The notes below the pieces were generated by a model that saw only the letters and a program-made list of their open reading frames with translations, had not been told where the DNA came from and searched no databases. The position numbers and the translations under genes are program-made. From Bacillota bacterium (GTDB taxonomy: Bacteria; Bacillota; UBA4882; UBA10575): DNA of 64,000 nucleotides. Positions 16,881 to 34,450 of this stretch are shown piece by piece. The stretch is taken from the NCBI GenBank assembly GCA_012838955.1, contig DUOH01000026.1:1-64000 (forward strand), given 5' to 3'. Position 1 is the stretch's first letter. Each line of letters begins with the position of its first letter.

Positions 16881-19550
16881 CTACAGTAAATCCTCCAGTC
16901 TGGCTTTGATCTTCTCATAATTGGTCTCCACTTCAGCCAGTTTAGCCCGTTCCTTCTCCACCACCGCCGCCGGGGCTTTCGCCACAAACTGCTTATTTTC
17001 GAGTTTTCCGGTCAATCGCTTTTGTTCTGCGGCCAATACGGCCAGTTCCTTCTCTAGCCTTTGCTTCTCCAGATCCAGATCTACCATTCCGGCGAGAGGA
17101 AGAAAGATCTCGACTCCGCTGACTACCGCAGTCATGGCTTTACCAGGTTTTTCACTCTTCTCCGGTTGCAGTGTGCTCTTATTCAGGCCGGCCAGATTCT
17201 CCAGATAGACTATGTTTTCCTTAATTATCCGAGCTTTTTCTTCGGTCGCCATGAATATGGCTTCCACTTTTCGCCCGGGATCCACCCCGACCTCGGCGCG
17301 GATGTTCCGGATGGCTTTGACGATCCCCATCAGCATATTCATCTCTTCCTCGGCGGATTCGTCCTGCCAAGCGGAGTCGGCCAGCGGCCAAGGAGTCAAC
17401 ATCAAGGTCTCCCCCTCATGCGGCAGGGTTTGCCAGATCTCCTCGGTAATAAAGGGCATATACGGATGGAGCAACTGCAAAATCCGCCTAAAGGTATGCA
17501 CCAATACTTCTTGGGTAAGTCGACGCGCGCGCCCTCCAACCTTAAGGTTGGTCTTGGCCAGTTCAATATACCAGTCGCAGAACTCGCTCCAGATAAAATC
17601 ATATAAGAGATTGGCGGCGCCGCCCAGGTCATACCGGTTAATCATCTCCTCAACCTCTGTAGTGATCTTCTGCAGACGGGACAGGATATACCGCTCGGGA
17701 AGAACCAGATTGACTTTTTCCCGTTTTATTTCTGCGGCAGACGCTTCTTCAGAGTAATCCGGCGCCGTATAATCTTCCAGGTTCATCAAGATAAAGCGGG
17801 CTGCATTCCAGATTTTATTGGCGAAATTACGCACTCCCTCAATCTTTTCCATCTGAAAACGCTGGTCCTGACCGAGGGTGGTTCCTGTGGCCAAAGTAAA
17901 CCGGAGAGTGTCAGTGCCATACTTCTCGATCACTTCCAGAGGATCGATATTCGTCTCCGGCCGTGATTTGCTCATCTTCTTTCCATATTTATCCAAAACC
18001 AAACCATGAATGAGTACTTCTCTGAAGGGTGGCTCCTGCATAAATTCCAGACCCATAAAGATCATTCTGGCCACCCAGAAGAAGATGATATCCCTGGCGG
18101 TAACCAAAACAGAAGTGGGATAGTAATGTTTTAATTCCGGGGTCTGCTCCGGCCAGCCCAAGGTGGAAAAGGGCCACAGCGCCGAGGAGAACCAGGTGTC
18201 CAGGACATCCGGGTCTTGCTCCAGATCCTTACTACCGCACTCCGGACAGGCCTCTGGCTCAGTAACAGCCGCGAGCTCCCCACCGCAAGCTTGGCAATAC
18301 CAAACAGGAATCCGGTGCCCCCACCATAATTGCCGGGAGATACACCAATCCCTGATATTCTCCAACCAATTCAAATAGATCTTGGTAAAGCGCTCCGGCA
18401 CAAAACGGATGGCTCCGTCTTTCACTACTTTGATGGCTGGGGCGGCCAAAGGCTGCATCCGGACAAACCATTGCTTGGAGATTAATGGCTCGATTATTGT
18501 ATCGCACCGGTAACAGACGCCGACCGCATGGTGGTGAACCTCCTCTCCCACCAAATATCCTCCGGCTTTCAGATCTGCCAGAATCTTCTCTCTGCACTCA
18601 TATCGGTCGAGTCCGGCGTATACTCCAGCCGCCTCCGTCATCTTCGCGTCAAAACCGATGACAGTAATCTGTGGCAGATTATGACGCATCCCTACCTCAA
18701 AGTCGTTAATGTCATGGGCCGGGGTAACCTTGACTGCGCCTGTTCCAAACTGCCGGTCTACCATTTCATCAGCGACGATCGGAATCTCTCTGTTCATCAA
18801 GGGCAGGATGACCTTCTTTCCAACCAGATCCTTATATCGCTCATCATCAGGATGTACGGCCACGGCTGTATCACCCAGCATCGTCTCCGGACGGGTGGTG
18901 GCCACTTGCACATATCCGTCGCCCTCGGCCAACGGGTAACGTATATGCCAGAGGCGTCCTTCCCGTTCTTCATGTTCCACCTCAATATCGGAGATGGTGG
19001 TGGCGCACTTCGGACACCAGTTAACCAGGTAACTGCCACGATAAATCAAGCCTTTCTTGTAAAGACGGACAAAGACCTCCCGCACTGCTCTGGAACAGCC
19101 TTCGTCCATGGTGAATCTTTCCCGGTCCCAGTCACAGGAAGCGCCAAGTTTTTTTAGTTGTTTGATAATGGCGTCGCCATATTCTTCCTTCCACGCCCAG
19201 ACTCTCTCCAAGAACTCTTCACGACTTAGATCATGCCTGGCAAGACCCTGCTTGGCCAATTCTTCCTCCACCCTCACCTGGGTGGCGATACCGGCGTGAT
19301 CCGTCCCCGGAACCCATAAGGTATCATCACCTTTCATCCGGTGATAACGGACTAAAATGTCCTGCAGGGTATTGTTTAACGCATGGCCCAGATGGAGTCT
19401 TCCGGTGACATTGGGGGGAGGAATGACTATACAATACGGCTGCTTTTCTTGAACAACCTCGGCCCGGAAATACTTATGCTCCATCCAATAAACATACCAT
19501 TTCTCCTCGACTGCTTGCGGGTTGTATACCTTTGATAATTGTTGACCCAT
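16881..19550 (-). CDS. valS: Valyl-tRNA synthetase
   Basis: ValS charges tRNA-Val and edits mischarged Thr. Class I motifs are clear: PPPNVTGRLHLGHALN (HIGH-type HLGH) near residue 45 and KMSKS (GKKMSKSRPETN) near 525. The CP1 editing domain lies between (ATTRPETMLGD) and the C-terminal coiled coil (LEKQRLEKELAVLAAEQ) matches ValS rather than IleS. I use the ATG at 19550 because GGAGG lies 7 bp before it, giving 889 aa. It is controlled by a T-box leader immediately upstream. Confidence 0.97.
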   Translation of the reverse strand: MGQQLSKVYNPQAVEEKWYVYWMEHKYFRAEVVQEKQPYCIVIPPPNVTGRLHLGHALNNTLQDILVRYHRMKGDDTLWVPGTDHAGIATQVRVEEELAKQGLARHDLSREEFLERVWAWKEEYGDAIIKQLKKLGASCDWDRERFTMDEGCSRAVREVFVRLYKKGLIYRGSYLVNWCPKCATTISDIEVEHEEREGRLWHIRYPLAEGDGYVQVATTRPETMLGDTAVAVHPDDERYKDLVGKKVILPLMNREIPIVADEMVDRQFGTGAVKVTPAHDINDFEVGMRHNLPQITVIGFDAKMTEAAGVYAGLDRYECREKILADLKAGGYLVGEEVHHHAVGVCYRCDTIIEPLISKQWFVRMQPLAAPAIKVVKDGAIRFVPERFTKIYLNWLENIRDWCISRQLWWGHRIPVWYCQACGGELAAVTEPEACPECGSKDLEQDPDVLDTWFSSALWPFSTLGWPEQTPELKHYYPTSVLVTARDIIFFWVARMIFMGLEFMQEPPFREVLIHGLVLDKYGKKMSKSRPETNIDPLEVIEKYGTDTLRFTLATGTTLGQDQRFQMEKIEGVRNFANKIWNAARFILMNLEDYTAPDYSEEASAAEIKREKVNLVLPERYILSRLQKITTEVEEMINRYDLGGAANLLYDFIWSEFCDWYIELAKTNLKVGGRARRLTQEVLVHTFRRILQLLHPYMPFITEEIWQTLPHEGETLMLTPWPLADSAWQDESAEEEMNMLMGIVKAIRNIRAEVGVDPGRKVEAIFMATEEKARIIKENIVYLENLAGLNKSTLQPEKSEKPGKAMTAVVSGVEIFLPLAGMVDLDLEKQRLEKELAVLAAEQKRLTGKLENKQFVAKAPAAVVEKERAKLAEVETNYEKIKARLEDLL

Positions 19551-19591
19551 AACCCTACCTCCTATTTGTATAAATCTATAAACTGTTTTAC

Positions 19592-19990
19592 AAAAAAAGT
19601 CTTTCATCCTTAAAGGACGAAAGACTTTTCGCGGTACCACCTTTATTCCCCTCTAAATCTCAGATCAATCGGTATCCGTCACTGATCATCAACGAGAGAT
19701 TACCGGTTGTCAAAACCTCCACACTACATACGAGCGTAGATTGGCAGAGGGCACTCATCGCGTTAACGGGCTAACCGCTCCGATCTACCACATATCCGAA
19801 TGCGTCTGAGTATGCTTCAACCGGAGAACTCCCGGACGACTTCACCTCGGCGCCGACTTCGGGATCTTTCAGCCAGGGATCCCTTCTCTACAAGCGGTCT
19901 TGGAGGTTACTCCTTCCGTTCATCGTTTTTCGCCAGACACAGGTTCACACCAAGTGAAATCTTCTACACAAACCTGTGCGCTTACTTATT
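19592..19990 (-). promoter_or_regulatory. T-box riboswitch leader of valS (specifier GUC, Val)
   Basis: The minus-strand leader ends with the T-box sequence AAGGTGGTACCGCG followed at once by an intrinsic terminator (about 17-bp stem AAAAGTCTTTC... with AAGACTTTT, then seven T). Upstream, Stem I can be read: an AG-bulge/terminal loop region with AGAGAAGGGATC and GGCTGAAAGATCCC. Its specifier loop has AGTA on the 5' side and GAA-GTC-G on the 3' side. The triplet GTC at 19840-19838 is a valine codon, matching the downstream gene. Uncharged tRNA-Val would favour the antiterminator. An additional hairpin (CACAGGTT/AACCTGTG, about 19939-19978) precedes Stem I. Confidence 0.92.
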
Positions 19991-19997
19991 CTATATT

Positions 19998-20027
19998 AAT
20001 ATACCCTTTTCTTTTTTATCTTGTCAA
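19998..20027 (-). promoter_or_regulatory. Sigma-A promoter of the valS T-box transcript
   Basis: TTGACA (20027-20022) and TATATT (20003-19998) are 18 bp apart on the minus strand. The predicted start near 19990 places the whole T-box Stem I in the transcript. Confidence 0.8.
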
Positions 20028-20306
20028 GAGTTTCCCGCTGATTGATCGGGTCAAGACACTGTAGAATTTTTTGAACCTGACGGAAAACACTTACCGTTAC
20101 ACAGCGTTTTGTCTGTCTAAACCTTTCAAAGCCATTCTTGTCAGGTTCCTACCACTACCGAAAAATGGAATATTATTGTGATCTTCTTTCCCCAAAAATT
20201 TAGTTTGCCTTAACGTTTTACCTCACAGGCGTATAAATAAAAACGCCCTCGCCAGCAAAGAAACCGGCTGAGGACGTATCTCTTGGCTTCGAGAAAACTC
20301 AGGGCT
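20028..20306. other. Intergenic region between valS leader and barrel-like protein
   Basis: About 280 bp with no gene. It holds the valS promoter edge and the terminator at 20237-20276. An inverted copy of TGACAAGAATGG/TTTGAACCTGACGG-like sequence in the middle looks unremarkable. Confidence 0.4.
20237..20276 (-). terminator. Intrinsic terminator after the barrel-like gene
   Basis: On the minus strand CGTCCTCAGCCGG... pairs with GCTGGCGAGGGCG around a short loop and runs into TTTTTATTTAT. It lies about 30 bp after the stop of the gene at 20307-20801. Confidence 0.85.
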
Positions 20307-20801
20307 TTAGAAGCGATAGCCCAGGCCAAGCTGGAAGTGGAGATCACTGTTGTTCCCGCCTAAAAAGCCTAATATGCCTCCACGTATATCAATACTCTTG
20401 GCCAAATTCAATTTTACGCCCAACTCATACATGGCCTTAAAATCTCCGCTCTCCATATACAAGTCAGCCTCATATAGCCCCTGAAAATTCTGGTTAATAC
20501 CAAAGGAACCGTTTACTCCCAAATAAGGATCTTCGTCAAAAATTCCGCCAACGACGGCCAGGTTAGGGTTGAGTTCATATTTTACCCCGATTTTCCACGC
20601 GTCTTCCCAAATTCGCAGAAGAGCTGCTAATTCCTGGGTGAAGCCATATTCCGCTCCAAGGCTCAATCCAATGTCACTAATGAACATTCCCGTGACTACC
20701 CCGTGGTTGGCGCTGACCGTTGGAGAGTTAATTCCCAAAGCAGTAGCAGGTAAAAGCAGGAGTATACAAACTACTGATAGGATTAAGGACACTTTCTTCA
20801 C
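20307..20801 (-). CDS. Secreted protein resembling a small outer-membrane beta-barrel
   Basis: No family is recognised with confidence. A clear signal peptide (MKKVSLILSVVCILLLLPATALG, cleavage near residue 23) is followed by about 140 residues of alternating polar/hydrophobic short strands (for example DIGLSLGAEYGF, WKIGVKYEL, LAVVGGIFD, FKAMYELGVKLNL). The chain ends with LHFQLGLGYRF. A terminal Phe after an alternating strand is the BamA-type sorting signal of outer-membrane barrels. The GTG start at 20801 has AGGAGG at 7 bp. It stands alone with its own terminator. If the organism has no outer membrane, it could be a secreted or spore-surface beta protein instead. Confidence 0.6.
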   Translation of the reverse strand: MKKVSLILSVVCILLLLPATALGINSPTVSANHGVVTGMFISDIGLSLGAEYGFTQELAALLRIWEDAWKIGVKYELNPNLAVVGGIFDEDPYLGVNGSFGINQNFQGLYEADLYMESGDFKAMYELGVKLNLAKSIDIRGGILGFLGGNNSDLHFQLGLGYRF

Positions 20802-20950
20802 TTAATAACCTCCTTACGGATTGTTTTCTGCTAATGCTTTTTTCTATATCCTGAGTAGTTTCCCTTCTTTTTTTGAAAACTATCTATTTTTATTCATATA
20901 TATTTAACATTCTTCTCAGGAAGTACAGAAATAAACAACATACCACAGAC

Positions 20951-21026
20951 CTTACGGCAATTCCCGGAGAAGCGCAAGCAGCCATCGATCGGTGGCTGCT
21001 TGCAAAGACACAATTTCGGCCGTAAG
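20951..21026. repeat. Two-level inverted repeat downstream of fba
   Basis: An outer pair CTTACGGC/GCCGTAAG (20951-20958, 21019-21026) encloses an inner 11-bp pair GCAAGCAGCCA/TGGCTGCTTGC (20974-20984, 20993-21003). There is no U-tract on either strand after the inner hairpin. It could be an RNA-stabilising 3' structure of fba or a weak terminator. The rest of 20802-21062 shows no gene. Confidence 0.6.
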
Positions 21027-21062: not shown

Positions 21063-22064
21063 TTAATATCTGGCTTTCATCTCTTCCAAACCCCAATTGG
21101 GGACATCGGTAATGTGACCGCCGGTGCCGAAAGCATCCATCCGTTTTTTAATTTCATTGGCAATAGCTTCTCTGGAAACTTTCAAGTATTCGCGGGGGTC
21201 AAATTTCTCCGGATGCTCCACTAGGAATTGGCGTACCGCGGCGGTGGCAGCCAGACGAATGTCGGTGTCAACATTGATCTTGTTGATTCCGTAAGCGATG
21301 GCCTTCTTTAAGGCCTCCAGGGGCACCCCTTGGGCATGCTCTAATTTACCGCCGTATTTGTTGATCTGATCAACTAATTCTGCTGGAACACTGGAAGAAC
21401 CATGAGATACCAAATAGGTGTCAGGTAGCAGTTTGCGAATTTTTTCAATGATGTCATAAGCCAGTTTGGCTTCGCCTTTAAACTTGAAAGCCCCGTGGGA
21501 GGTACCGATGGAGATCGCTAAAGCGTCAACACCGGTTCTCTCCACAAACTCCACAGCTTCGTCCGGATCGGTTAAGTGGGTTTGTCCGGAACCTACTCCG
21601 TCCTCAATTCCGCCTAGAGTGCCCAGTTCGCCTTCGACGGTCACCCCCCGGTCGTGGGCGTATTTTACAACTTCGCTGGTGACCTTGACATTATACTCAA
21701 AGGTTGACGGGGTTTTGGAGTCTTCCATCAAAGAACCGTCGATCATTACTGAGGTACAGCCCAAATCAATGGCACGCTTCACTGTTTCAAAACTGTTACC
21801 GTGATCCAAATGAATGGCCACGGGAACCTCCGGAGCAAGCTCGGCAGCGGACTTGATAATATTAATCAAATACTTGTCTTGCGCATACTTTAGCGCTCCC
21901 CGGCTGACTTGGGCAATGATGGGCGCCTTTTTTTCTTGAGCGGCCATCATAATCCCCTGCATCTGTTCCATATTATTCACGTTATACGCCCCAATGGCGA
22001 AGGGTTGACCCTTTTTATACGCCTGAAGGCTGGCCTCTAAAATAGCTTTCGATGTAACTAACAC
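21063..22064 (-). CDS. fba: Class II fructose-bisphosphate aldolase
   Basis: This zinc enzyme cleaves fructose-1,6-bisphosphate to DHAP and glyceraldehyde-3-phosphate. Zn ligands and catalytic residues are in VAIHLDHGNSF, VEGELGTLGGIEDGVG, LVSHGSSSVP and GINKINVDTDIRLA. I use the GTG at 22064 because GAGGAGGAG precedes it by 8 bp; the upstream in-frame TTG (22097) has no SD and its 11 extra residues include the SD itself. That gives 333 aa, normal for class II. The PPi-type pfk lies 210 bp upstream on the same strand, so the pair covers two successive glycolytic steps. Confidence 0.96.
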   Translation of the reverse strand: MLVTSKAILEASLQAYKKGQPFAIGAYNVNNMEQMQGIMMAAQEKKAPIIAQVSRGALKYAQDKYLINIIKSAAELAPEVPVAIHLDHGNSFETVKRAIDLGCTSVMIDGSLMEDSKTPSTFEYNVKVTSEVVKYAHDRGVTVEGELGTLGGIEDGVGSGQTHLTDPDEAVEFVERTGVDALAISIGTSHGAFKFKGEAKLAYDIIEKIRKLLPDTYLVSHGSSSVPAELVDQINKYGGKLEHAQGVPLEALKKAIAYGINKINVDTDIRLAATAAVRQFLVEHPEKFDPREYLKVSREAIANEIKKRMDAFGTGGHITDVPNWGLEEMKARY

Positions 22065-22273
22065 GACGATCTCCTCCTCAATTAACTTTCTCTTCAACTT
22101 AATAAGATCTTAACCCTGAACCAACTCAGGCTTCAGACTAATTCCCGGCCAATAAGTCTTCAGCCGGAGTAACAGCTCCACACGGATTATTGCCTTGTCC
22201 GCGCAATTAGTATGGCTTGAACGGTCATTTAAGGATTGGGTATCTCTTCCCAAACAGTAGCCTCCGCCATATA

Positions 22274-32961: not shown

Positions 32962-34158
32962 TCACTTGCCGCTGGCCGCTTGCTGAAGCTCTTCAACTTT
33001 ATCCAAGGCTTCCCAAGGCAGATCCAGATCAACACGGCCGAAATGTCCGTAGCAAGCCGTCTGTTTATAGATGGGCCTTCTCAGATTTAAGTCTCTAATG
33101 ATGGCCCCCGGACGTAGATCAAAGACTTTCTCTACGAGCTGGACAAGCTCTGTTGAAGAGATCCGGCCAGTGCCGAAAGTATCAATCATAATGGAGACCG
33201 GCCGGGCTACTCCGATGGCGTAGGCGATTTGGATCTCGCATTTTCCAGCCAGTCCGGCTGCGACAATGTTCTTGGCTACATAACGGGCAGCGTAGGCGCC
33301 GGAACGATCCACTTTCGTCGGATCTTTACCGGAGAAGGCTCCGCCACCATGCCGCGCCATTCCTCCATATGTGTCCACAATAATCTTCCGCCCGGTGAGA
33401 CCGGAATCCCCATGTGGACCGCCAACGACAAAGCGTCCGGTAGGATTGATATAGTACTTGGTTTGCGCGTCAAGGTATTTTTCGGGTATGACCGGACCAA
33501 TCACTTTTTCCTTAATGTCCTGTCGAAGCTGTTCCATATCAATGTCGGGATGATGTTGAGTGGAAACCACCACAGTATCAATACGGACCGGTTGATCAGC
33601 TTCATACTCTACAGTAACTTGCGTCTTGCCGTCCGGGCGAAGATAAGGCAAGACCTTCTCTTTTCTCACCTGCGTCAGGCGCCTAGCCAACCGATGGGCC
33701 AAGGCGATCGGCATCGGCATGTACTCTTCTGTTTCGTTGGTGGCGTACCCAAAAACCATACCTTGATCGCCAGCCCCGAGCTGCGCAATAGCGTCCGCCT
33801 CCAGCCCGCTCTTCACCTCCCAAGCGGAGTTCACCCCCAGCGCGATATCAGGCGACTGTTCATCAATAGCTGTTAAGACGGCGCAGGTATCTCCATCAAA
33901 ACCGTACTTGGCTCTGGTATATCCAATCTCTCTTACTGTCTCCCGGACAATTTTGGGGATGTCCACATAACAGTTGGTGGTGATTTCTCCCATCACCAGT
34001 ACAAGACCGGTAGTTACCGATGTCTCACACGCCACCCTAGCTTGGGGGTCTTCAGCCAAAATAGCGTCCAGCACAGCATCGGAGATCTGATCACAGACCT
34101 TATCCGGATGCCCTTCCGTCACCGATTCGGATGTAAATAACTGACGTTTCTTTTCCAT
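32962..34158 (-). CDS. metK: S-adenosylmethionine synthetase
   Basis: MetK makes SAM from methionine and ATP. Diagnostic motifs are [21 protein letters not shown] at the N-terminus, [12 protein letters not shown] in the middle and the phosphate loop [16 protein letters not shown]. Length 398 aa. The ATG follows AAGGAGG. An S-box riboswitch and terminator lie upstream, so the gene is shut off by its own product. Confidence 0.97.
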
Positions 34159-34334: not shown

Positions 34335-34450
34335 ACCTCGTCCTCATCTTCCAGAATAAACTTCTGGCGGAGTTGGCACCGTTTTAGGGACGGATCCCTA
34401 ATGGTTGCCGGGTTTCATTGGGCCGTCTCCCTCCACCCTCTGGATGAGTT
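34335..34450 (-). promoter_or_regulatory. SAM-I (S-box) riboswitch of metK
   Basis: The minus-strand leader contains the S-box core: AGAGGGTGGAGGGA, then GGCCCAATGAAACCCGGCAACC (read as GGCCC..TGAAACCC..GGCAACC), the P3/P4 arms GGGATCC...TCCC, GGTGCCAA and the closing GATGAGGA. These are the invariant K-turn, pseudoknot and SAM-pocket segments. Promoter features lie in 34500-34560 but none is clear enough to mark. A small hairpin (CTTCGTG/CACGAAG, about 34478-34497) precedes the aptamer. Confidence 0.9.

Follow-up and report, generated by a model that had tools for sequence, protein, structure and literature searches.

What does a small secreted protein that ends like an outer-membrane beta-barrel do in a member of the Bacillota? 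The question is raised by an open reading frame for 164 residues with a GTG start, at positions 20,307–20,801 (minus strand) of the 64,000-nucleotide stretch of contig DUOH01000026.1 (assembly GCA_012838955.1) that we analysed as a whole and refer to as the window. Our analysis leads us to regard its product as, in all likelihood, a small ten-strand outer-membrane barrel of an LPS-diderm, spore-forming member of the Bacillota, which would be inserted by BamA and would be structural and nearly closed.

The gene stands by itself. A ribosome binding site region (20,804–20,815, minus strand), in which AAGGAGG precedes the GTG by a few bases, can be read from the sequence; fba (21,063–22,097) lies upstream, and valS (16,881–19,640) with its T-box leader (19,610–19,932, minus strand; RF00230, 104.9 bits), given here for context only, lies downstream. 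At 20,238–20,280 (minus strand) the barrel gene has a Rho-independent terminator, made up of a strong hairpin and a T-run behind it (dG −24.2 kcal/mol, z −4.57), with none of 200 shuffled sequences folding equally well; the hairpin is absent from the list produced by a simple consensus terminator scan. The initial annotation, which had described a single gene with its own terminator, was correct on both counts. Another inverted repeat, at 20,965–21,020 between fba and the barrel gene (dG −21.2, z −3.6, without a T-run), may be the 3′ terminus of the fba transcript. Elsewhere in the window, a SAM riboswitch (34,341–34,450) is found directly upstream of a gene (32,962–34,158) that looks like an S-adenosylmethionine synthetase. 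The arrangement with valS directly downstream of the barrel gene (16,881–20,801 in the window) recurs in three genomes of another genus (L052, L053 and L054), and valS is the sole conserved neighbour, other relatives having different ones. We rejected an assignment of function from these neighbours because nothing evident connects a barrel with the synthesis of valyl-tRNA. An lpxB-like gene is also found a few kb from the barrel gene in the same three genomes.

The two ends of the protein resemble those of an exported barrel. Residues 1–23 (20,733–20,801, minus strand) have the layout of a signal peptide, K-K followed by a hydrophobic core and then A21-x-G23, which we judged by eye and by conservation; A21 and G23 are kept in at least 90% of the 23 homologues, and cleavage would be expected after G23. 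The C-terminus, FQLGLGYRF (20,310–20,336, minus strand), is a beta-signal of the type recognised by BamA, and the last residue is Phe or Tyr in 23 of 23 homologues. Across 235 kb of the source genome, only this protein and one Pfam OMP_b-brl protein pass the beta-signal pattern among 196 open reading frames of at least 100 residues.

To ask what lies between these ends, we used structure prediction. From a 23-row alignment, AlphaFold gave ten antiparallel strands over residues 34–163 (pLDDT 86.4, pTM 0.75), and this model together with the homologue alignment places the barrel at residues 34–164 (20,310–20,702, minus strand). Some genomes carry two paralogous subfamilies, one mostly F-terminal and the other Y-terminal; for a protein from the second subfamily that shares 39% identity with the window protein, AlphaFold again predicted ten strands (pLDDT 82.7), with the same borders except for a strand 8 that is two residues longer, the two alignments having rows in common, so that the models are not fully independent. 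When both models were compared with the PDB using Foldseek, all matches listed were transmembrane barrels, the best being OmpW, OmpA, OprF, Ail, Pla and designed transmembrane barrels, with moderate TM-scores of 0.4–0.6 to solved barrels. Among the listed matches, those nearest in strand number were the designed TMB10_163 (PDB 8uzl; rmsd ~5 Å to both models, TM-score 0.43–0.47) and the ten-strand Pla (TM 0.6). The prediction is all-beta in both cases, and the non-barrel fold that the initial annotation had named as evidence against its reading was not seen.

The sequence itself carries the alternation expected of such strands. Summed over the strands, the inside and outside faces differ in hydrophobicity by 21.3, where shuffled sequences average 9.0 (sd 2.1) and none of 20,000 reaches the observed value, although the strand borders derive from this family's own model, which makes the test not fully independent; in strand 1 the two faces scarcely differ. 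The turns of the window protein are 2–4 residues long, and long loops are absent. If both ends of the protein are periplasmic, all five would-be extracellular hairpins show length variation among the homologues, at the turn or adjacent to it, but only one of the four periplasmic turns does, through one deletion in three sister genomes; this pattern is as expected of an outer-membrane barrel. With inside and outside assigned by hydrophobicity, the invariant polar strand residues E51, K74, N97, D138 and R140 are predicted to face the lumen, and Y75 and F156 to point outwards. The initial description of a secreted, barrel-like protein, drawn from the signal peptide, the short alternating strands and the terminal Phe, is thus well founded.

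We then examined how widely this protein occurs. Homologues number 23 proteins in 18 genomes, plus one outlier in another class. Full-length homologues, with identities of 34–46%, are present in all 16 species examined of the source GTDB family and in two species of a second family in the class, two further genomes of which gave weak or partial matches; the source genome holds one copy. In a sample of 398 genomes from the phylum, matches were confined to these genomes of the class and the outlier, a single-copy homologue (L075:2574–3056) in genome G317, which reflects either old inheritance or lateral transfer. Sixteen positions are invariant: G34, E51, G53, K74, Y75, G86, G95, N97, G128, D138, R140, G141, G142, F156, G159 and G161. 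The Pfam profile OMP_b-brl (PF13505) aligns with the C-terminal 130 residues of the window protein at E 2.3e-5; the match scores 25.1 bits, short of the curated cut-off of 28.7. The profile matches 16 of the 23 members at E ≤ 1 (best 1e-7). The Pfam scan gave no SLH match to the window protein, NCBIfam gave no match, and a PDB sequence search gave none with either protein or profile queries. A scan of a contig collection found nothing with the single protein as query and six relatives, all in Bacillota MAGs, with a profile of the nearer subset; phage records held no relatives, and PHROG returned weak matches only, to families of unknown function. Because the window protein has no Pfam match above cut-off and no NCBIfam match, we call this a new, lineage-specific family within a known kind, the small outer-membrane barrels.

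The source genome assembly spans 67 contigs and 2.52 Mb at 98% completeness, and we examined it for the genes of a diderm envelope. The initial annotation had named the absence of BamA/Omp85 as a result that would speak against its reading; the genome has instead four Omp85 proteins above the Pfam cut-off, two of them POTRA-containing and BamA-type, one a short form and one a patatin-Omp85 fusion. The first BamA (L041:10767–12539), with POTRA and Omp85 domains, adjoins TamB and OmpH and matches the BamA model TIGR03303 (E 3.7e-60, 204 bits, under the curated cut-off of 297). This gene order is the BamA-TamB-Skp arrangement described for Negativicutes and Halanaerobiales (PMC5007114). Around it lie LptA-like, LptC-like, LptF/G, LpxD and SpoIVB-peptidase-like genes and, as the outcome of the search for LptD, a probable but weakly supported LptD. 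A second cluster (L046) encodes LpxC (297 bits), LpxA, LpxI, LptC, LptA, LptB (TIGR04406, 352 bits), LptF/G and a probable OmpM-like protein (L046:1462–2907) whose SLH and barrel matches are both weak. SLH proteins, for which a search had also been suggested, are present, as are OEP/TolC-type domains and two further OMP_b-brl proteins above cut-off.

The source genome offers several further observations on its envelope genes. Those for LPS export and lipid A are split over two stretches (L041:1–19999, in G000:C45, and L046, in G000:C14:30000–46104), each carrying LptA-, LptC- and LptF/G-type genes of its own, with one LptB across both. The second BamA-like POTRA-Omp85 protein (L043:803–2554, in G000:C62; 583 residues) is encoded away from the TamB cluster and has a weak ShlB match. 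At L044:8137–11014 (G000:C18), the gene for the short Omp85 (379 residues, POTRA not detected) shares a few bases with that of a secreted peptidase-MA/PD40 protein; the two proteins are possibly a surface-export pair. At L045:1655–3886 (G000:C66), a patatin-like phospholipase is fused to an Omp85 barrel (743 residues), which we take to be the PlpD-like type Vd secretion architecture.

Two Spo0A_C matches above cut-off agree with the suggestion of a spore-former, and the suggested diderm lineage is upheld by BamA/Omp85, LpxC and the lpt genes. Judged by its gene content, the source organism is very probably an LPS-diderm spore-former with two membranes; we rejected a monoderm reading on account of the outer-membrane gene content. 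Omp85 was found in 29 of 29 genomes of the class examined, so that a diderm state is borne out, by gene content, for the class as a whole. Among the Bacillota, diderm envelopes are already documented for Negativicutes, Halanaerobiia and Limnochordia (PMC11448272).

Taken together, these data suggest the following route and role, in which the localisation, BamA dependence, closed lumen and physiological role of the protein are what we infer. The precursor would be exported by Sec and cut after G23; the OmpH/Skp chaperone would escort it, and BamA would insert it by way of the C-terminal beta-signal. The product would fold into a compact barrel in which very short loops join ten antiparallel strands, with the lumen largely packed by the invariant E51, K74, N97, D138 and R140 and by glycines. 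Since these inward residues would pack the lumen, we favour a structural, nearly closed barrel that would let through at most very small solutes, very slowly. It would fill and stiffen the outer membrane, like barrels of the size of OmpA, OmpX and OmpW, leaving bulk uptake to other channels.

Might the lumen instead serve as a diffusion channel, with the protein acting as a small porin of the KdgM/NanC type for small metabolites? KdgM and NanC do appear among the Foldseek matches, and the window protein has a weak Pfam match to OprB (E 0.13). KdgM and NanC, however, are 12-strand barrels of about 200 residues, whereas the window protein has ten strands in 131 residues and no constriction loops. 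Its invariant charged residues face the lumen by prediction, and a ten-strand barrel of Veillonella proved a poor channel when tested, being nearly impermeable, with liposome swelling much slower than for OmpM1 and OmpF (PMC10628300). We consider a porin improbable on these grounds; the ten short strands, the lack of constriction and surface loops and the invariant lumen network argue for a narrow, mostly closed barrel.

An outer-membrane enzyme or lipid-modifying barrel of the PagP, PagL or omptin type is less probable again. The structural matches with the highest query TM-score include the ten-strand omptin Pla, but omptin catalysis relies on residues carried by long outer strands and loops, which the window protein lacks, and neither Ser nor His is among the 16 invariant positions. 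Equally remote is a soluble secreted beta-protein or spore-coat protein that merely happens to end in Phe: the host has the sporulation gene Spo0A, and the outer-membrane localisation is a prediction, yet such a protein would account poorly for a strand alternation far above that of shuffles, an aromatic C-terminus in every member, a barrel fold in both models and a genome equipped with outer-membrane machinery. The nearly closed structural barrel thus remains our preferred reading.

This barrel has relatives in kind. Like members of PF13505 (of OmpA/OmpX/OmpW/Opa size), it has a signal peptide, one barrel that runs to the C-terminus and an aromatic last residue; it differs in falling under the curated cut-off, in its predicted ten rather than eight strands and in its lack of long extracellular loops. 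Two ten-strand barrels of Veillonella parvula, judged too narrow for nutrient transport (PMC10628300), are likewise predicted, narrow-lumen barrels of a diderm Firmicute; one of them, FNLLGLLA_00518, is OmpA-like, whereas the window protein is a barrel only, of ~141 mature residues. The designed TMB10_163 also has ten strands in ~140 residues, but its sequence is artificial and shares no homology. OmpM, with SLH domain and a 16-strand porin, is a barrel of the same envelope type in diderm Firmicutes; compared with it and with general porins, the window protein is much smaller, lacks an SLH domain and has ten strands rather than 16. A bolder formulation, which we put forward tentatively and consider somewhat doubtful, is that this is a native, almost loop-free counterpart of the designed TMB10 barrels, possibly the smallest ten-strand barrel in nature, and a conserved envelope protein of an uncultured class of diderm, sporulating Bacillota. 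Should such an almost loop-free barrel of ten strands be borne out, it would provide a natural minimal barrel for studies of folding and design.

Diderm envelopes in a few Firmicute lineages and small barrels are both known already, and the present case is a good example of these. For a group of diderm spore-forming Bacillota, the family supplies a simple protein marker of lineage, and such groups bear on the origin of one-membrane bacteria from two-membrane ancestors.
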